Below, in pieces: positions 5,799 through 40,586 of a DNA stretch of 64,000 nucleotides (position 1 is its first letter; every line of letters begins with the position of its first letter). Source of the stretch: Onthophagus taurus (lineage: Eukaryota; Arthropoda; Insecta; Coleoptera; Scarabaeidae). Location of the stretch: positions 14,696,501 to 14,760,500 of the forward strand of contig NC_091975.1 of the NCBI RefSeq assembly GCF_036711975.1, read 5' to 3'. The notes beneath the pieces were generated by a model. That model saw nothing but the letters and a program-made list of their open reading frames with translations, ran no database searches and was not told the DNA's origin. A program made the translations under genes and the position numbers.

Positions 5799-5855
5799 TT
5801 AAAGTACGAAGAAAACAAATGGCCAAAGGAGATATTCGTTGTAGATCAGAAAGGT

Positions 5856-7388
5856 ATGGAACGGGAAACGAAAAGAGTGAATGTGGTTGTGACAGAACAG
5901 GAAGGGATAGACATTTTTGAAAGATTTTCCAGTTTCAACACTCTTGTGAATGTATTGGCTTACGTATTACGATTTATTAACAGTACAAAACATACAAATC
6001 ACAAGGACACGGGAAAATTAGACGTTACTGAAGTAAAAAGATCAGTCGATTATATAGTAAAGATAGTGCAGAAAGAATGTTTTGAAAGTGAAAGACGAGA
6101 CCTGAAGAGTAAAGGTAAGATATCTAATAAAAGTGCACTTTTACCATTACGTCCGCTCTTAGACAAAAATGACATCTTACGAGTAGGTGGCAGGTTAACA
6201 AATACGAGCTATGCTTATGAAAAGAAACATCCGTGTATATTGCCACGCCAGCATAAATTCACGCATCTCTTATTCAAGTACGAACACGAACGATTATTAC
6301 ATTGTGGTGCGCAAACGCTTCTTTCAACAATCAGAGAAAAGTTTTGGCCTATTGGAGGCAAGTCTTTAGCAAAAAGAACAATCAAGGAGTGTAATACTTG
6401 TTTCAAAACTCTTCCACGAACTTATGAATGTAAGATGGGAGATTTACCGCGTGACAGGGCAAGTCCTAGTCAACCATTTGCGATAACCGGCCTAGATTTT
6501 GCTGGACCATTTTTGTTAAAAGATAGACTAACACGTGGCACAAAGTTGATCAAGGTTTATGTATGCACATTTGTATGTTTTTCCGTCAAAGCCGTGCACC
6601 TTGAGTTTTTGTCAGACCTCACAATGGATGCTTTTTTGGCAGCGTTGAAAAGATTTACTGCAAGGAGAGGTCTGTGTTTAGAAATATATTCTGACAACGC
6701 AACAAATTTCGTGGGTGCTAGAAATGAACTCTCAAGGTTGTACAAATTTTTGAGATTTAATACTGACAATATCACAGAAAAATTGACGAGAATTGGCATA
6801 ACCTGGCATTTTTCTCTTCCAGGTTCCCCTCATTTTGTTGGCTTGTGGGAATCTGCTGTTAAAATAATGAAGTCGCATTTGAAAAGAGTGATTGGAAATT
6901 GTCACTTAAATTTGGATGAATTTAATACCATTTTGGCACAGGTAGAGGCATGCATGAATTCCCATCCACTTTACCCGATAAGTGATAACCCTAATGATCC
7001 CACTCCTCTCACTCCTGGGCATTTTTTGATTGGCGGTCAACTACAAGCTTTACCTGAAAGAAACATGTTGGACTGCAATACCAACCTATTATCACGTTGG
7101 AAGAAGACACAACATATTGCGCAACAGTTTTGGAAATTATGGGTCCGTGATTATATTGGTCATTTGCAAGGCCGAACCAAATGGCGACAAGAAGCAATCT
7201 GTCAAGCCAAACCAGGTAACGTGGTATTAGTAAAAAATGAAAACTTCCCACCCCTGCAATGGCCACTTGGAGTCATCATCGACGTCCACCCAGGAAAGGT
7301 TGAAGCTGTTCGAGTGGCTACGATCAAGACCGAAAAGGGGATACTGAAGCGTTCAACAAGGAAATTATGCAAGTTACCGACTCAGTAA
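5856..7388 (+). CDS. BEL-1 integrase (open frame of 510 codons)
   Basis: This is a long open frame for a BEL/Pao integrase that would insert element cDNA into chromosomes. The N-terminal zinc-binding region is present (HERLLHCGAQTLL, CNTCFK). The catalytic triad is visible as D in LDFAGP, D in IYSDNATNF and E in GLWESAVK. The C-terminal region has LTPGHFLIGG, LLSRWKKTQ and the basic tail. It is the only part of BEL-1 that remains fully open and is probably a remnant, since upstream pol is broken. The start at ATG 5856 is arbitrary; the natural product is a polyprotein. Confidence 0.85.
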   Translation: MERETKRVNVVVTEQEGIDIFERFSSFNTLVNVLAYVLRFINSTKHTNHKDTGKLDVTEVKRSVDYIVKIVQKECFESERRDLKSKGKISNKSALLPLRPLLDKNDILRVGGRLTNTSYAYEKKHPCILPRQHKFTHLLFKYEHERLLHCGAQTLLSTIREKFWPIGGKSLAKRTIKECNTCFKTLPRTYECKMGDLPRDRASPSQPFAITGLDFAGPFLLKDRLTRGTKLIKVYVCTFVCFSVKAVHLEFLSDLTMDAFLAALKRFTARRGLCLEIYSDNATNFVGARNELSRLYKFLRFNTDNITEKLTRIGITWHFSLPGSPHFVGLWESAVKIMKSHLKRVIGNCHLNLDEFNTILAQVEACMNSHPLYPISDNPNDPTPLTPGHFLIGGQLQALPERNMLDCNTNLLSRWKKTQHIAQQFWKLWVRDYIGHLQGRTKWRQEAICQAKPGNVVLVKNENFPPLQWPLGVIIDVHPGKVEAVRVATIKTEKGILKRSTRKLCKLPTQ

Positions 7389-13799: not shown

Positions 13800-15398
13800 A
13801 TGAATATCGAAAATGAAACTTGGAGTAGTGGTGAATCGGAGGTTGATGAACAAGTTGATTTGGATATGACAGAGGAATCTAAAGTTGAAGCTATTGATAC
13901 AGCAGATGATCAATCCGATGAACCTAATGTTGATGTGGTTTATGACAATTGGTACTACCCCTCAATAAAAGACTTTACTGGACAAGCTTGCATTATTGAA
14001 AATATTTCAATAAAAGGCTCCATTAGATTATTTTGAATTCTTTTTTGACTCGTTTCTCCTAGATACCATAAGAGTACAAACCAATATTTATCAAGACCAG
14101 AATCCCGAAAAGAATCGTGTGGATATGAAGCCGTGGAGCCCCGTGACCGATAATGAATTACGTATTTTTTTTGCATTATCAATTAATATGGGACACGTTC
14201 GAAAAAATGCATTGAAAGACTATTGGAGCAAAGATCCTCTTCTGCTAACTCCAATATTTGGGGACTATATGTCGCGAAATAGATATCTACAAATTCTGCG
14301 ATATCTTCATTTTGCTAATAATGAAGATGTAATAAATCATCCTTTGAAAAAAGTAAAACCAGTAATTGACTATCTAAAAAATAAGTTTTCTAATACCATC
14401 AATGCAGGAAGAAATCTTTGTATAGATGAAAGCTTACTCTTGTGGAAAGGACGACTAAAGTTCAAGCAGTACTTACCTCTCAAAAGAAAACGTTTTGGTA
14501 TCAAATTGTTTGAACTGGTGGACTGTGAAACCGGATTTTTACTTGATTTTATTGTGTATACTGGCTCAGACACAGATTATGATAAATTTAACTTAAGAGT
14601 TTCGGGGGATATCGTAGCTCATTTCATGAAACCATATCATAATAAGGGTCATATTTTATTTATTGATAACTGGTACTCATCACCACAGCTTGCAGAATTT
14701 CTGCACAGCCGAGATACAGGGGTTTGCGGAACTGTAAAAAAAAATCGAAAAGGAATGCCCGTTTTGAAATCCAAGCTAAACCGTGGTGAAGTAGAAGTTG
14801 CCCACACCGACGTCTGGATGGTACTAAAATGGATGGATAAAAAAGAAGTTTTTGTCATAACAACAGTTCATGAAGTCGAATTTTGTGCAACTGGTAAAAA
14901 AAACTATAAAACTCAGCAAGACATTATAAAACCACGTTGTATTCATGACTACAATAAAAATATGGGGCTATTGACAATATCGACAGACAGCTATCTTTGA
15001 CGGAGACGGTGAGAAAATCAATGAAGTGGTACCGAAAACTATTTTTCCATCTGCTTGATTTGATATTGATGAATGCGCATGTACTATTCATGATCAAAAC
15101 TAAGCAAAAAGCGTCCTTTTCCAACTTTCGTTTATGTATAGTAAGGGATTTATTGAAATTAGATTCTAATGAACCGTCGCCTTCATCATCTGGCGTCGAT
15201 CTTCGACTACAGGGGCGCCATTTTCCCACAAAAATTGTAGATGAAACCTCACAACGAAAATCTTTGCAACGTAATTGTGTATTATGCGCAATGTCTAAAC
15301 AAAGGCGCCGAACTGCGTACCAATGTAACGTATGTCATAAAAGTTTATGTGTCGCACCATGTTTCGAAATATATCATACAAAAACTAAATTACCATAA
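13800..15398 (+). pseudogene. piggyBac transposase with two frameshifts
   Basis: The start ATG is at 13800 (MNIENETWSSGESEVDEQVD, an acidic N-terminus typical of the family). Frame 1 runs to 14036, a frameshift near 14020 leads to frame 2 (to 15000), and a one-base loss near 14965 leads to frame 3 (to 15398). Catalytic aspartates are visible in CIDESLLLWKGRL, FIDNWYSSPQLAEFL and, after the second frameshift, DNIDRQLS. The C-terminus is a cysteine-rich zinc-binding domain (CVLCAMSKQRRRTAYQC, CHKSLCVAPC), which in the family binds the element ends. The enzyme would cut and paste at TTAA. The two frameshifts disable it here. Confidence 0.9.
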
Positions 15399-21606: not shown

Positions 21607-22098
21607 ATGTCGAAAACATTCGGGTTTTACCTTTTACAAGAATATTTGCTAAAATACCAATCTTTGCCAACACAGCAAGGACTACGCGGTTTTGGACCGA
21701 TAATTTTGATTGGTATAAATATAATTTGTGGAATCTGCCCATTTATATCAACATTTATAAGTAAAAAATGAACGGGGTATACGTATACCTTTATTTACAT
21801 TTTAACTATTTCAGATTACAAGATTAATTATGCGAAATTTTTATTTCACATGGAATTTATTACAATGGGAGGATTATTAATATCTACTAACGTTCAACTA
21901 TTGCGAAATCGACACCGATTCTTTAAAATGTTCAATTTATTGAGTGATTTTAACCAGGTGGAAGTTCAAAGAGTTAAACACTTCAAAAGAAATTTTAAAA
22001 TTTTATTTAAAACGATTCGTTATGCTGCATTTCTTATCGCCTATTTCATAACATATTCTGTTATTAGGGTGGTAGAAAATAAAGTTTCTTCTATTTAG
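21607..22098 (+). pseudogene. Odorant receptor A, 5' part (exons 1-2), truncated
   Basis: Exon 1 (21607-21760) starts MSKTFGFYLLQEYLLKYQSL. A GTAAA donor is at 21761 and a TTTCAG acceptor ends at 21814. Exon 2 (from 21815) reads through HMEFITMGGLLISTNVQLLR, LSDFNQVEV and IRYAAFLIAYFITYSVI. The intron is phase 1, as in odorant receptors B, C and D. The receptor homology stops near 22095, where Penelope-like sequence begins. Exons 3-6 are missing. The protein would be a membrane ligand-gated odorant receptor. Confidence 0.85.
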
Positions 22099-22099
22099 A

Positions 22100-22560
22100 T
22101 GATGAAAATGTTTATTTATTTATGTTTTCGGTGCTTGTAGTGCTATACGAATTTATCGTATTTCGAATAGAAATTATTCGTCCTCAGGCACGACTACAAA
22201 ACATAAAACATTCAAACTAGGTGAGTGTCTTAATTAAACATTATAATACATTGAACAAAACTTATTTCACAGGACATATTAAAATTTAAAAGTTAAAATC
22301 AACACTATTAAAATACTATTAATCAATACTATTAAAACATTATTAGAAAACATATTTACCGTCAATTTGTTTAGGTATTAAAAAAGATGTTAAACATTCT
22401 CGATAAATTTGAGGTGTAGGAAAACGTTTAATACGACCAAAAATTAATATTCTTTGTTGTAGGGTAAAGATCTTAAACTTTTGAAACCAAATGTAGAACT
22501 GGGGTCTTTGTGGTTCAAACAGGGTTAGAAAAGGTGGGGTTTCAGAAAACAGGAAAGATT
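22100..22560 (-). mobile_element. Penelope-like element terminal segment, minus strand
   Basis: On the minus strand this holds a 3' untranslated part, then the hammerhead-like motif (22134-22198) and an A-rich tail ending at about 22100 against odorant receptor A. The stretch 22467-22550 is the inverted copy of 23612-23702 (AAGTTTAAGATCTTTA, CCTTTTCTAACCCTGTTTGA), which lies downstream of a GIY-YIG frame. Inverted partial copies are common for Penelope-like elements. Confidence 0.65.
22134..22198 (-). ncRNA. Hammerhead ribozyme-like motif
   Basis: On the minus strand: CTGAGGA (consensus CUGANGA), a GAATA/TATTC stem with an ATTTC loop, GAAA, an ATACGA/TCGTAT stem, then ATA directly before GCAC, which pairs with GTGC upstream of the core. 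ATA fits the NUH cleavage rule. One extra C lies between the core and stem II, so activity is uncertain. Hammerheads are known from Penelope-like elements. Confidence 0.55.
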
Positions 22561-24815: not shown

Positions 24816-26241
24816 TTAAGCGATTCTCTTCTTCATGACTTGTAAAATCCAATTATAGAAAACATATACCTTCTTGTACTCCTTAATTAAACAACATTTA
24901 ATAATTAATTTTAATTCTTAAGTATGTATATCAATTAGAAATTATTAAATATTTACTTTAGCTGCTGCTGCGTGTGACACTTCGCCGAATAGAGGAATAT
25001 CCATAATGAGAGGTTTTTGGCTCATACACAACAATATCAAAACATCTTTTCGTGTTGAAACGTCCGCTTCAAATCAGTTCAAGTTATAAACATCTTCAGC
25101 AACGCTACCAGCCTATTAACAAATATCACTTTATTAACATTTTAGGTGAATAACACATTAGTTCATACCGCTGTGGTAAATCTCTGTCCAATTGCGTGAG
25201 CTGTATATAGTCCTATTGATGATGATAGCATCATAAAGCAACTTATTAAATTCTTTTCCTATAAAAATTAGTTTATTAGCAATTAAATGATTATATCATA
25301 CGAGACCTCAAACCAAAAGAAATGCGGTGACTGAGATTGTTATCCAAAGTATAAAACAAAATTTTGTAGACGCAATAAAGCCCGCATAGAAATTGTAAAC
25401 GCATTTAAACTTTCTAAAATCATAAATGATGTCGTAAAGGTTGTAAAATAAACTCCAAGATTAGTATACCTGAAAATATCTTGATGATACAAGACGATAG
25501 GTCGCAAACTCTTAAAATTTTCTTTCTTATTTCTTGTTAAATGTGTGTTGTTAATCATGATTTTAACGTTTTCAATTCGTACGATTAATAATTCAACCGA
25601 ATAGGCATACATTATTGATGCAAAAATTGTGATATGCAATCCACTGCTTATGACATAAATTTGGAATAATATTATTAAGGTTATTTCCCACTGCTTCAAT
25701 TCAAATGGTACATAATATTCCACTATGAAGCAGACTTTAGTATTAACGACGTTGTCACAATCATTTCGTATCATAACATAGTACGCCATAAGATATCCGA
25801 AAAGAAATCCACCGAAGCGAAGCAATTTCAAAATAATTTTCATATTTTCTTCAATAAATTTAAATCTTTTATGGTGAACGAGTTGTTTAATATCACTTAA
25901 TGTGGTAATCATTTCGAGCAACTCATATCGTTTTCGCAAAGCTTGAATGGTATTAATCAGAATAATTGTAGACATAGCAAGAAATTCCAGATAAAATAAT
26001 ATATTAAGAAAGTCCTTCTTGTAATCTAAATTCGTTAAAATAACCATATTAATGTATACTTAATTATTGTTGTTGTAACACACTCACTTGTAAGTTTTAT
26101 AAAAAATGGATAAAAGCTCCAAATTAAGTTGATTACGATCAATATGAATGCTCCCAATTTATTAAATCCGCGCGAGGTGGGCCAAGAGTTGCATTTGCGC
26201 AAATACTTTTCGAGAAGGTAAAAACCGAGTGTTTTCGACAT
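24816..26241 (-). pseudogene. Odorant receptor B, six exons, one in-frame TGA
   Basis: Exons on the minus strand: 26241-26088, 26025-25470, 25413-25314, 25258-25169, 25112-24957, 24881-24816. All introns are GT-AG and 55-75 bp long, and phases join correctly. The total is 374 codons including the stop, the usual receptor length. The start MSKTLGFYLLEKYLRK matches odorant receptor A. Hydrophobic segments occur throughout, and the C-terminal part has IGLYTAHAIGQRFTTA then VSTRKDVLILLCMSQKPL, a typical TM6-TM7 stretch. Codon 313 is TGA where a tryptophan is expected (NLN-stop-FEADVSTRK; odorant receptor C has NLNW there). Apart from this the gene is intact. The last exon is supported by a similar sequence in C. 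Confidence 0.85.
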
Positions 26242-26394
26242 CTTGAATGATGTTGAACTAAAAGGAAAGAAAGCTTAGCTTCTAGTCTACGTGTATGTGG
26301 ATACGTGTACCAATATTAAAATTTGAATTATGACTATTGATTTATCATCTACATTTTTTAATCTGAACAATAAGTAAATTTCTGAAGAAATGTA

Positions 26395-26585
26395 TTACCT
26401 CAAAAATGTTTACAAGGACGATTTAATTTGAAACGTGTTAACTCAAAAACTAATCAAATTGCGCTCAAATCTTTTATTTTGTTAAAAAGTAGGTTCTTTG
26501 CGTTATAAATTGGCAAAAGATTCATTTTGGTATTTTAAAATCGATGAGTTATGATTTTTTGAAAATGGTTCTAAAATATTAAAAT
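26395..26585. repeat. Probable dispersed repeat
   Basis: TTTTGGTATTTTAAAATCGA and TGAGTTATGATTTTTTGAAA resemble the stretch near 12755-12800. The rest is not shared. Confidence 0.4.
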
Positions 26586-26589
26586 ATTT

Positions 26590-27195
26590 AGAAACACGAT
26601 TTCTCGCAGGGATAGCACCCATGGATGCAAAAGCACCAAAGCTTAAAAACTCCACATGTCTTGCGCATGCCTGCCCTGAAAGAAGTGATCAATGTATGCC
26701 CTTTTCTCCCTCCTAATGGCACCATTTGCATAATTACGCAATTGTTTATAGTAATTAAAATTGCTTTCATTTGGCTGGGATCTATATTTAGAATATGCCT
26801 TATTCCTCAATTTAAACAGCAACTTAATATTTTCTGTTATCCATGGCTTATGTTTACGACGCAGAATAACAGTACGCACCGGGGCATGCACATCAAACAG
26901 CGAAAGAATATGAAAATTTATAAAGTCAACTTTGTCACTAATACTGCTTAATTGAGTTACATGATGCCAGGGAATAGCACTAAGATCGGAAGAGAAAGCA
27001 TCAACATTAAAACTGTGAAAATCACGGAATGACACCAGTCGCGGCACACCACCATCCACAGAAGCGAGATTCAAGAACACATATACCATGTGACGATCTG
27101 CAACATTGTGTATATCAACAACACCAGAGTCAGTAACATCATTAACTGAGGTGATAATAAAATCAATCAATGTAGAAGATGTACCAGTTATACTT
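26590..27195 (-). mobile_element. CR1/jockey-like non-LTR element, endonuclease fragment
   Basis: On the minus strand the frame carries the C-terminal half of an AP-type endonuclease and the following linker: TGTSSTLIDFIITS, FRDFHSFNVDAF, SLFDVHAPVRTVILRRKH, KPWITENIKLLFKLRNKA and YANGAIRREKRAYIDHFF. Such enzymes nick the target for reverse transcription. The fragment lacks both its start and the RT domain. Its 5' end abuts the alpha-tubulin fragment at about 27195. Confidence 0.85.
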
Positions 27196-31630: not shown

Positions 31631-34532
31631 TCAACTGAAAATGAAACTATCGTCATTACTTTTCCATATTAAACCTAAGGTTCGATACATCAAATTATTT
31701 TCAAATGATCGTGAATCAGAAGTTGCAATATATTCTTCAGTTAGCGAGCTAATTATTTCTTGTGAATTAGATGACCATTTCTTGGCAAGAAAACCACCCG
31801 CCATAAGAATCCCGTTTAATTGGTGAATTTTTTCTCTAGCATGTATTGTATCATTAGCACCCGATAAGATGTCGTCTACATATATATCATTCAAAATAAT
31901 ATCGGACGCAAATGGTAAAGTTTTAGAGTGTTCTTCAGCCAACTGATGTAAACAACGTATAGCAAGGTATGGAGCGCAAGTTAAGCCATATGTAACAGTG
32001 CTCAATTGATATATTTTTATTGGATCAGATGGGTTAGTTCGCCATAATATCTGTTGAAATGGCAAATGATCAGAGTGAACCTTTATCTGGCGATACATTT
32101 TCTCAATATCAGCAGCAAAAGCAACAGGATGTTGTCTCCATCGCATTAAAACATCGACAAGATCATTCTGAAGTTTGGGTCCAGGCAAAAGGTAATCATT
32201 AAGAGACATTCCTGAGGTAGATTTCTGAGAGCCGTTAAAAACAACCCTTAACTTAGTGGATGTACTGCTTTCTTTTATCACTCCATGATGAGGAAGAAAG
32301 AATTGTTGGCCTACTGAAGAGATTTCTTTTGAACATTCAATCATGTGACCAAGAGAAAGATACTCTTCCATGAATCTGGAATATTGACTTTGAAAATTTG
32401 GATTTTTTAGAAAACGAGATTCCATACGAAGCAACGCCTTTTCTGCCATTGCATAAGAATCACCAATATTAATTGAAGTATTTCTAAATGGCAATCGAAC
32501 TATAAATCTTCCTTTAGAATCCCTGGTATGAGTAAGTTTAAAATAATCTTCACAATCCTGCTCTTCTTTAGTCAGTAAAGGTTTTTTAACGATTTGAGAT
32601 TCTTCTTGGTTCCAAAAGAGGTGCATTAATTCATAAAGATTGTTTTCAGGAGAACATTGGAATGAATAAATTTTGTCTTTTACATTTTCTGAATGGATTG
32701 ATCCCGATAGTATCCAACCAAGAGTGGTATTTTGAAGGAGTATTGAACCGTTGTTTAATCGACGAATTCCGCTTTTCATAATTTGGGAATAAATGTCAAC
32801 ACCTAGGATGACGTCAATTGTTGTAGATGACATAAAATGTGGATCAACAAGTGTAATATCTTTTAATTCATTTTGAAGATCATTGCATATAACTTGTGGA
32901 GGTACGTAAGCCGTGATTTGAGGTAATACAAGTGCATTAAGTCGATATTGCATGTAAGGTTTAGTTCGAGAGCTAAGATAACAATCAACATTTCCATGTG
33001 AAATATTTGTTGCTTGTCCTCCAACACCATGAATAGGAACAGATTTTGAACGTCGAGGTAACTGTAGAAGTTGGCATAAAGATTCGGAAATAAAAGAAAC
33101 TTCAGAGCCTTGGTCTATTAAAGCTCGAATTAAACATGGTTTTCCATTGAAAGCTGCAATGTTTACAAGAGCGGTCGCGAGTAATATTGTAGATTTAGTT
33201 GTTAGATGTGAGACTGCCATATGAGAGGAGTTTTGAATAACTGTTATATGAGGTATGGAATTATTAGAATTGTCAGATGAAGTAGTTTGAGAAGTTACTG
33301 TTTGAGATTGAGCGTTAGAACCATGTAATGAAGTATGATGTTGTCGTTGACAAATACGACAACGCTTGGATGAGCGACAATTCTTCATAAGATGAGGTCC
33401 AAGACAATTAAAACATAGGTTTTTGGATATCACAAATTCTCGTCGTCTTAGCGGAGATTTGTTCATAAATTGTTGACAAGATGAGATGTAGTGATTAGAG
33501 TGGCATAACGAACATGACTGATTGTGAGTTGGCGTTGAAACGTTGTGAGATTTAACGTTACCAATAGGCTTAATTGGAATGTTTCGTTTTGTAGAAGTGA
33601 GCTGTTCAATCGCCTCAAGACTATGAATTCTTCCAAAAAGAAAGCTTTCTAACTCTTTAAACGTTGCTGGGGATTTCTTACTCCCAATAGATTTTTCCCA
33701 ATCTTTGAGGGTTTCAGGATCAAGTCTTCGTACAATCAAAAAAACGAGTATATTATCCCACTGATTTGTAGGACAATCTAATGCTTCAAGTGCACCAAGA
33801 TTCTCTTTAATCTCACTTATCAAACGCTTAAGCTCGCTGGACGATTCATGTTTAATTGATCAAGTCGACAAAAGAACTGACAAATGAGAATCAATCAGAA
33901 TTCGTTTATTTTCGTAACGATCTATAAGAATATCCCATGCTCGAGCAAAATTATCTTCACAAATCGCGATGTTTTTTAAAAGTTGGGCGGGTTCTTCCGT
34001 TACACTCATTTTTAAATAATGTAATTTTTCGACCAAAGAGAGTTCTGAATTAGATTTAACCATAGAATCGAATAAGTCATGAAAATGTTTCCATTGTAGA
34101 TAGTCTCCAGAGAATGTTGGTAAATCTATTCTTGGTAATTTAGGAGAATGAGAATTTATTGCACGTGTTGTATTATTTAAAGAATTATTTGCTAAGTTGT
34201 CAGAGGGAGCGGATAACTTATCTATAAGATCGAACATGTCTCCTTGAATATTTACGTATTGTTCTTCGCACTCAGCATATATATCGTCTTTAAAATAAAC
34301 GTGATCTTGAAATTCATCGCGATTACCAGTTACAGTTTAATGAATTTGCTGGAATTTAGCCCAATTTGAATTTAATAAATTTAAACGACTCAAATGCAAA
34401 TGACGATGCAAATGTGACGATTCGACCGATCGTCACATTTGCATCGCCTAGTTTTTTCAAATTTGTCATTGCACGCGAAATTAGACCGTAAAGTTCGATC
34501 TGTCGATCTAGAGTAATTCTAACTTCAGACAT
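31631..34532 (-). pseudogene. BEL-2 gag, protease and reverse transcriptase
   Basis: A likely gag start ATG is at 34532. Gag continues at 33860-34237 (PRIDLPTFSGDYLQWKHFHD, RYENKR) and from 33823 after a stop near 33860. Zinc knuckles CSLCHSNHYISSC, CFNCLGPHLMKNC and CRICQRQHH follow. The protease site is ALIDQGSEVSFIS. RT has FAADIEKMYRQIKVH, YQLSTVTYGLTCAPYL and YVDDILSGAN. At about 31610-31640 a 17-bp direct duplication (CATTTTCAGTTGAAAAA twice, the second slightly changed) shifts the frame before RNase H. Confidence 0.88.
34404..34446. repeat. Perfect hairpin in BEL-2 gag leader, 18-bp arms
   Basis: CGATGCAAATGTGACGAT (34404-34421) and its complement (34429-34446) enclose a 7-nt loop. 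It lies within the start of the gag reading frame, so it is a recent inverted duplication or an RNA structure. Confidence 0.85.
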
Positions 34533-39188: not shown

Positions 39189-40586
39189 TTACTTTGGAAT
39201 TTTTAATACCCAATTACAAAAAACAAATCATTTGGCAGTCCTTTAAAAAAAGATTTAATTTTATAATTTAAAAATATTTAGCCACATAAATTACTTACTG
39301 TAGCTGCTGCTGCATGGGATGCTTGCCCGAAGAAAGGGACTTCAATAAGGAGTGCTTTTTGACTCAAACAAAACAATATTAAGATATCTTTTCTTGTTGA
39401 AACGCCCGTTCGTACCAGTTCAAATTATAAATTGATATTGCCACATTTCCAGCCTAAATAGTTATAATAACAAAGAATTAACAAAATTATCTCACTATTA
39501 AGATTTATATTATTATACATACCCAAGTAGTAACCCTTTGTCCAGCTGAATGAAGTAATAATACCAGCAAGAAACACAACATTGAAAAAGATAAAGCTAT
39601 CAAGTTCTTTTTCTAAAAATATAATTAGATTAATTAATTGATATACATATTACACTATTTAAAATACAAACCGAAACAAACAGAGTTGTCGATATAATTA
39701 ATAAAAGTACCATAACTATTTTCGTTGGGACGAGAAAGTTTACAAAGAAGTTATTGAGGCATTGAAACATTCTAAAACGATTAATCAAGAAAAATATAAC
39801 AATCATGTTGAGGTGTTAACCCACCTGAATACTTGTTGTTGATACAAGATAATTAATCGCAATTTTTCGACATTTCTCTTCTTATTTTTAGTCAAATTTG
39901 TATTACCAATAACTTCGTTTAGGTTTTTTAGATGCAAAATCAATAATTCTATGGAATACCAATACAAACTTTCTCCAGAAAGCATGATATTTAGTATAAC
40001 GCCGACAACATATGTTTCAAATAACATCATTAATGTTATATTCCAATGTTTCAAATTAAAGGGGACATAATAATGAAATGCTAAACAATGTTTAAAACTT
40101 TTTGAAATCGAACAGTCATCGTCAAATATAATAAAGAAGCCAAAAAGAAACGGATAAAGAAATCTCACATAATTTGTTGATTTTAGTGAATTCTTTAATA
40201 TGTTATCGACAAATTTAGTTCTATCCGGGATATTGAATTTCTTAAAATCGCTCAAAATATCAATCGTTTCAAGTAAACGATATCGATTTCGAAATAGTAG
40301 AATGTTACCAGTTACAGCTATCGCACTCATAATCATGAATTCCATGTGAAATAAAGATTTTGCAAAATTCGTTTTATAATCTATAATGAATATGTTTAAT
40401 CCTATTTCGTGGCATTAAAAGAAAAATACTTACTAATAATTTCTGTTATAAATAGGTAATTGCCCACGTTGCATTAAAAATAATTAGAATTGTTGGTGCG
40501 AGTCCTCGAAATCCATTCGATACGGGCCAATATTGATGTTTCCGAAAATGTTGTTCTAAAAGGTAAAAACCGGGTGTTGTCTTCAT
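39189..40586 (-). pseudogene. Odorant receptor C, six exons, frameshifted
   Basis: Exons on the minus strand: 40586-40444, 40380-39835, 39771-39672, 39612-39523, 39453-39299, 39240-39189. Exons 3 and 4 are exactly as long as in receptor B (100 and 90 bp), and the splice sites are GT-AG. Exon 1 starts MKTTPGFYLLEQHFRKHQYW and shifts frame near its end (ITYL then stop). Exon 5 is one base shorter than in B, just after NLNWYE. The last exon has a stop in the matching frame before CNWVLKIPK. It is a recent pseudogene of the same receptor subfamily. Confidence 0.85.

Follow-up and report, generated by a model that had tools for sequence, protein, structure and literature searches.

Results

Gene structure of receptor B

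The window, by which we mean the whole stretch of 64,000 nucleotides analysed here, carries on its minus strand a gene, receptor B, whose parts are listed below together with the basis on which each was placed.

26241-24816, minus strand: receptor B, whole gene (spliced model)
26242..26600, minus strand: 5' flank of receptor B, akin to paralog P47 (flank alignment)
26088..26241, minus strand: exon 1, with the ATG at 26241 (same exon in paralogs)
25470..26025, minus strand: exon 2 (model and paralogs)
25414..25469, minus strand: intron 2, 56 bp, GT-AG (model)
25314..25413, minus strand: exon 3 (model and paralogs)
25169..25258, minus strand: exon 4 (model and paralogs)
24957..25112, minus strand: exon 5, which contains the stop (model, paralogs and exon-5 search)
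25074..25076, minus strand: in-frame TGA, codon 313 (model and exon-5 matches)
24816..24881, minus strand: exon 6, with the normal TAA end at 24818-24816 (model and paralogs)

The coding sequence is 1122 nt long and comprises 373 codons and the TAA, so the six exons and 374 codons claimed in an earlier note on this DNA hold if the terminal TAA is counted. The same note spoke of six segments joined by GT-AG; all the junctions are indeed of this kind, but six exons leave five introns, each GT...AG. The reading frame is broken by one lesion, the TGA at codon 313 of 373 (window 25076-25074), which is the sole internal stop, and the claim that it is the only defect was borne out, as the model holds no other lesion and, compared to the paralogs, no frame-shifting indel or splice change over the 1122 nt. 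Exon layout and splice sites are those of eight paralogs in the same genome, with three deviations: exon 2 is one codon longer in P42 and four codons shorter in P51, and an insert interrupts exon 5 of P47. The last three introns are in phase 0, which is typical of insect odorant receptors, and exon 5 (156 nt, a multiple of three) has phase 0 at both ends.

One frame of intron 2 is free of stops, which is why a stop-to-stop ORF (25340-26059) crosses it; many of the more distant exon-2 matches finish near the start of this intron. Upstream of the gene, an AG after a pyrimidine run ends 16 bases 5' of the ATG in receptor B (26242-26300) and in 7 of the 8 paralogs, and this acceptor-like site suggests an unannotated intron in the 5' UTR of the subfamily.

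Family assignment

With X placed at the stop, the receptor B protein matches the family profile of insect odorant receptors, Pfam 7tm_6 (PF02949), above the cut-off (E 4.9e-13, 49.2 bits, cut-off 25.8), and reaches only 16.2 bits with 7tm_7, under the cut-off of 26.6. The Pfam search with single ORFs gave no match for receptors B (exon 2) and C, and for receptor A a weak 7tm_7 match under the cut-off. Taken alone, the protein matched none of the solved structures at E up to 10, in which it differs from the family, as it does in the in-frame stop at the conserved tryptophan. A profile built of six paralogs finds the solved receptor OR28 (8v3c_D, E 5.4e-5) as its sole credible chain, tryptophan being aligned to tryptophan, and the C-terminal part of receptor B has this tryptophan followed by a Q-K-P stretch, as OR28 does. 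The receptor exon L060 is closer to OR28 and OR10 than to the Orco chains. Many paralogs of receptor B are found in the same genome, in the manner of the large lineage-specific expansions of insect odorant receptors. On these matches receptor B is a gene of the insect odorant receptor family, for which seven membrane helices in reversed topology and a channel formed with Orco would be predicted.

The TGA codon among relatives

The close relatives of receptor B lie outside the window, and they were looked for in the source genome (290,825,966 bases in 33 contigs). A search in the exon-2 frame scored 150 of 215 candidates, which is a lower bound, and the best match among these 150, apart from receptor B itself, is 86% identical (contig C15); a search with exon 5 scored 150 of 201 candidates. 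Among the 30 best exon-5 matches the codon at the position of the stop is TGG in 29, and TGA occurs in receptor B only. An in-frame stop of any kind is present in 6 of the 150 scored exon-5 matches:

Receptor B: TGA
C3:14942317: TAA
C7:30806474: TGA
C11:2273333: TAA
C6:5052021: TAG
C15:5807275: TAG

All of the six paralogs that were aligned (P40, P44, P52, P50, P51, P54) have the tryptophan, and 32 of the 61 columns from this residue on are invariant in them, versus 86 of the 312 before it. Since the TGA is found in receptor B alone among the copies inspected and the tryptophan is conserved, the stop appears, as far as seen, to be a single change private to this gene at a strongly conserved residue. 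The earlier note had ascribed the tryptophan to receptor C and to the family; receptor C does have TGG and the family counts agree, but receptor C is a distant and broken gene. It was given up as a reference because of its two frameshifts and its identity of about 41% to exon 2 of receptor B, and closer paralogs were used instead.

Receptor C lies at 39299-40586 on the minus strand and has one-base frameshifts in exons 1 and 5 (two in all) and a degraded exon 6, by which it is more damaged than receptor B. Receptor A (21607-22100, plus strand) shows, within the stretch searched, exon 1 and no more than a portion of exon 2.

State of the subfamily

Of the nearest relatives, P40 and P44 are full length and free of stops, P42 has two TAA codons (exons 2 and 5), and the sequence retrieved for P41, P43, P45, P46, P48, P55 and P56 shows a partial gene in each case. 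Exon 5 of P47 (L047) is interrupted by an insert of 420 bases whose ends are TG...CA and which comes with a CTCT duplication, possibly a solo LTR.

A census of lesions covered 41 loci, of which 30 were those that matched exon 5 best and 11 came from the nearest clade and are partly the same genes. It scored exon coverage and stops only, so that frameshifts at exon ends may escape it, and the 30 loci extend 1500 bases upstream of exon 5, by which some genes are cut. Within these bounds 14 of the 30 loci have six exons at a coverage of at least 0.80 and no stop, and six complete exons together with exactly one stop are seen in receptor B alone among the 30. A locus outside the 30, L057 on contig C7, has six exons at a coverage of at least 0.98 and one TGA (L057 3062-3064) at a codon which is TTA (Leu) in three relatives. 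Single-stop full-length receptors therefore arise in this family with no Trp codon involved, as random decay predicts.

Mosaic origin and age of the stop

Receptor B is mosaic, resembling one paralog, P40, in exons 1 to 3 and another, P47, in its flanks and 3' part. At the sites where P40 and P47 differ, receptor B agrees with P47 at 60 and with P40 at 8 in the upstream 360 bp, with P40 at 61 and with P47 at 23 from exon 1 to exon 3, and with P47 at 82 and P40 at 8 from intron 3 onwards, 3' flank included; at 14 more sites it matches neither. P47 is on the contig that carries receptor B, at a distance of about 210 kb, and its 5' flank (G000:C10:14511k) is identical to that of receptor B at 274 of 303 aligned bases; this flanking similarity marks P47, itself a broken gene, as the nearest relative. 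Either receptor B or P47 has acquired its exons 1 to 3 by exchange. In the 3' flank, P47 and receptor B are separated by four small indels in 436 bp, which are not polarised.

Differences between the two genes were polarised with P40 as the outgroup, or with P44 at the gaps of P40. Of the differences at the 931 positions compared, which run from intron 3 into the 3' flank, 13 were derived in receptor B and 7 in P47, and 5 could not be polarised; by the 13 derived differences, the TGA would be no older than about 1.4% of change on the receptor B lineage. The earlier note had offered a very recent origin as one option, and this agrees with a stop private to receptor B, with the lack of any frame-shifting indel or splice change, and with an omega above 1 before the stop that is borderline in simple counts.

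Selection on the receptor B branch

An analysis of the whole gene on one tree was dropped once the gene proved to be a mosaic, and exons 1-3 and 4-6 were analysed apart. Counted against four siblings, the changes specific to receptor B are 20 nonsynonymous and 2 synonymous in exons 1 to 3, one of each from exon 4 to codon 312, and again one of each after the stop, which are too few to judge. In a codon model with six genes, omega for exons 1-3 was 5.0 on the receptor B branch versus 0.66 elsewhere (p 0.0008 against equality, 0.008 against omega 1); estimated tip by tip it was 1.5 for P42, 0.94 for P40, 0.64 for P47 and 0.62 for P44. For exons 4-6 the branch had an omega of 0.49 versus 0.52 for the rest, and differs neither from the rest nor from 1 (p 0.46 against 1).

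Robustness runs included P48 as well and covered six topologies, each with two sets of exons. Omega of the branch ranged from 2.7 to 49, with p against the background of 0.0004 to 0.021; against omega 1, p was 0.0019 to 0.027 for exons 1-3, and for exons 1-2 only it fell below 0.05 in one topology of the six (0.0094), the others giving 0.062 to 0.085. Among 400 simulations with receptor B neutral, the observed statistic was reached with omega above 1 in 2, and in either direction in 6. The excess of nonsynonymous changes is stronger in the codon model than in simple counts, where it is borderline: of 22 changes 5.67 are expected to be synonymous and 2 were observed (P 0.052 against neutrality), and Fisher's test gives 0.0498 versus the four siblings and 0.10 versus the two intact ones.

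Pairwise dN/dS between receptor B and P40 is 1.10 before the stop and 0.32 after it; between P40 and P44 it is 0.54 before the position of the stop and 0.28 after it, and the low value after the stop thus belongs to the region as such and is no peculiarity of receptor B. The value of 0.88 for receptor B and P47 after the stop was discarded as distorted by the insert in P47. The comparison on both sides of codon 313 which the earlier note had proposed was therefore informative in one half: omega exceeds 1 before the stop, in exons 1-3, but after it the one-to-one ratio of changes has almost no power.

The pattern in exons 1-3 probably reflects rapid, adaptive divergence of a translated receptor, and it fits such a fast-diverging receptor better than a gene long dead. 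An omega above 1 is unlike a gene that was neutral for the whole of its branch, so that inactivation would be late or absent. Positive selection on young duplicates of odorant receptors has been reported in ants, according to the part of the source available (PMC4549895).

Discussion

From our analysis we consider it likely that receptor B is a recently inactivated odorant receptor gene, either a fixed pseudogene or a null allele, which look alike in a single genome. Its loss of function, its age and its decay are what we infer from the DNA, and the course of events may be proposed as follows. The subfamily would be young and of fast turnover, formed by duplication and non-allelic exchange; receptor B would have diverged fast in its N-terminal two thirds while it was translated, and a single change from TGG to TGA would then have struck the tryptophan conserved in the family. 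Termination at codon 313 would yield 312 residues, and the 61 C-terminal residues lost by it form the most strongly conserved portion of the protein. To judge by the solved receptors, they presumably include the last helix, which lines the pore. The stop lies 117 nt upstream of the next splice junction, from which it may be predicted that the transcript could face nonsense-mediated decay.

A single stop in an otherwise complete receptor is ordinary for a gene family that turns over fast. Leaf-cutter ants of two species have 50 of 435 and 58 of 434 odorant receptor genes called pseudogenes, in the figures accessible from PMC4549895. Odorant receptor pseudogenes with the PSE suffix, as far as the annotation rules given in the available text of PMC4549895, PMC11302349 and PMC6720082 go, resemble receptor B in having a premature stop in a recognisable receptor gene, and by these rules it would be tagged PSE; it differs from them in its single lesion and in the coding change before it, which is accelerated and not merely relaxed.

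An assembly or base-calling error, with receptor B in fact intact, is in our view decidedly improbable: the TGA is a single base in a single genome and the neighbouring receptor C shows two one-base frameshifts, but the 14 loci of the census with six exons and no stop indicate that the sequence is generally clean. Errors of long-read assemblies are indels more often than substitutions, which argues against an error if the assembly is of this type. A splice form that skips exon 5 and yields a shorter receptor can hardly be believed in; the exon could be left out in frame, but its loss would remove the best conserved stretch of the family, and nothing else points to skipping. We give similarly little credence to ADAR editing of UGA to UGI, which would be read as UGG and let the mRNA encode tryptophan again. 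Editing at the A of the codon would restore the family residue, inosine being read as guanosine, but a guanosine on the 5' side of edited adenosines is disfavoured in every metazoan surveyed, and a uridine on their 3' side in most of them, in so far as the available text of PMC9989829 states, and the A of the TGA of receptor B has both of these disfavoured neighbours. There is also no unusually stable RNA fold around the stop, 84 of 100 shuffles folding at least as well.

Translation through the TGA deserves a longer discussion, although we regard it as unlikely. Receptor B would then be a working receptor: at codon 313 the ribosomes of olfactory neurons would accept a near-cognate tRNA for Trp, Cys or Arg, and would go on to translate what is left of exon 5 and then exon 6; in a version of this proposal, to which we assign the same low likelihood, tryptophan is often restored and the lineage was diverging under positive selection until the stop arose and thereafter. 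No stop is leakier than UGA, and mammalian and yeast tests found Trp, Cys and Arg inserted at it (PMC11079177, as far as its accessible text goes), but the same source puts Trp at only about 10% of the full-length CFTR product, so that the family residue would not always be restored. Olfactory receptors of flies, one odorant receptor among them, are reported to be read through in the portions available of PMC6125307, PMC5615767 and PMC7244557. Downstream of the stop receptor B keeps an intact frame up to the position where the family normally terminates, and this frame contains the 8-mer CAGCAGCA, which is enriched in fly and mosquito read-through genes and stands near or after the stop in about a quarter to a third of the candidates (PMC5100048, from the text available). 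However, the 8-mer also occurs in 4 of the 8 paralogs with TGG (P40, P42, P52, P54), and in P47 beyond its insert, and is therefore older than the stop and uninformative. Likewise, the 12 bases before and the 30 bases after the stop are identical in P40, P42 and P47, all with TGG, so that nothing nearby has changed along with it, and the one synonymous and one nonsynonymous private change after the stop give no sign of constraint either way.

Programmed read-through genes of flies and mosquitoes tend, though not strictly, to have a C directly after the TGA and a stop that is conserved, and RNA structure after the stop is found in only about 9% of the candidates, as given in the accessible part of PMC5100048. 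Receptor B shares with such genes the 8-mer after its stop, common as it is to TGG paralogs; it differs from them in having TGA followed by T, not the favoured C, in the occurrence of its stop in 0 of 8 paralogs, and in the 100 nt after the stop, where no stable RNA structure was found (fold z +1.08; of 200 shuffles, 176 were no less stable). The three options of the earlier note, a very recent pseudogene, a polymorphic null or read-through, were the right ones to consider, and its "very recent" is supported by our data; read-through gained no specific support. With so little time elapsed since the stop arose, a receptor that has just died and one that is read through would look the same in sequence.

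Prieto-Godino et al. reportedly described in 2016 pseudo-pseudogenes among olfactory receptors, D. sechellia Ir75a and others. Receptor B resembles these in being an intact receptor gene with one premature stop, and differs in that Ir75a belongs to the IR family and receptor B to the OR family; the read-through of receptor B is putative. In the literature search, within the parts of the sources that were available, no case of read-through of an odorant receptor beyond Drosophila was evident, and receptor B, if it were read through, would extend the phenomenon. It would also make a clean natural test case, with one UGA at a Trp codon and matched controls provided by the TGG paralogs in its genome. 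If receptor B is merely a young null, as we prefer to think, it adds one example to those of receptor turnover, and its use lies in showing, at the point of loss, a gene that bears a signature of adaptive divergence.

Mobile elements of several kinds were also seen in the window. A transposase on the plus strand (14014-15398), which we take to be piggyBac-like, is in two frames and matches Pfam DDE_Tnp_1_7 (E 2.1e-74) and then zf-Tnp_2. Retrotransposon polyprotein pieces lie at 5799-7385 on the plus strand, with integrase domains and DUF5641, and at 31634-33859 on the minus strand, with a reverse transcriptase match under the cut-off, an aspartyl protease and DUF1759.
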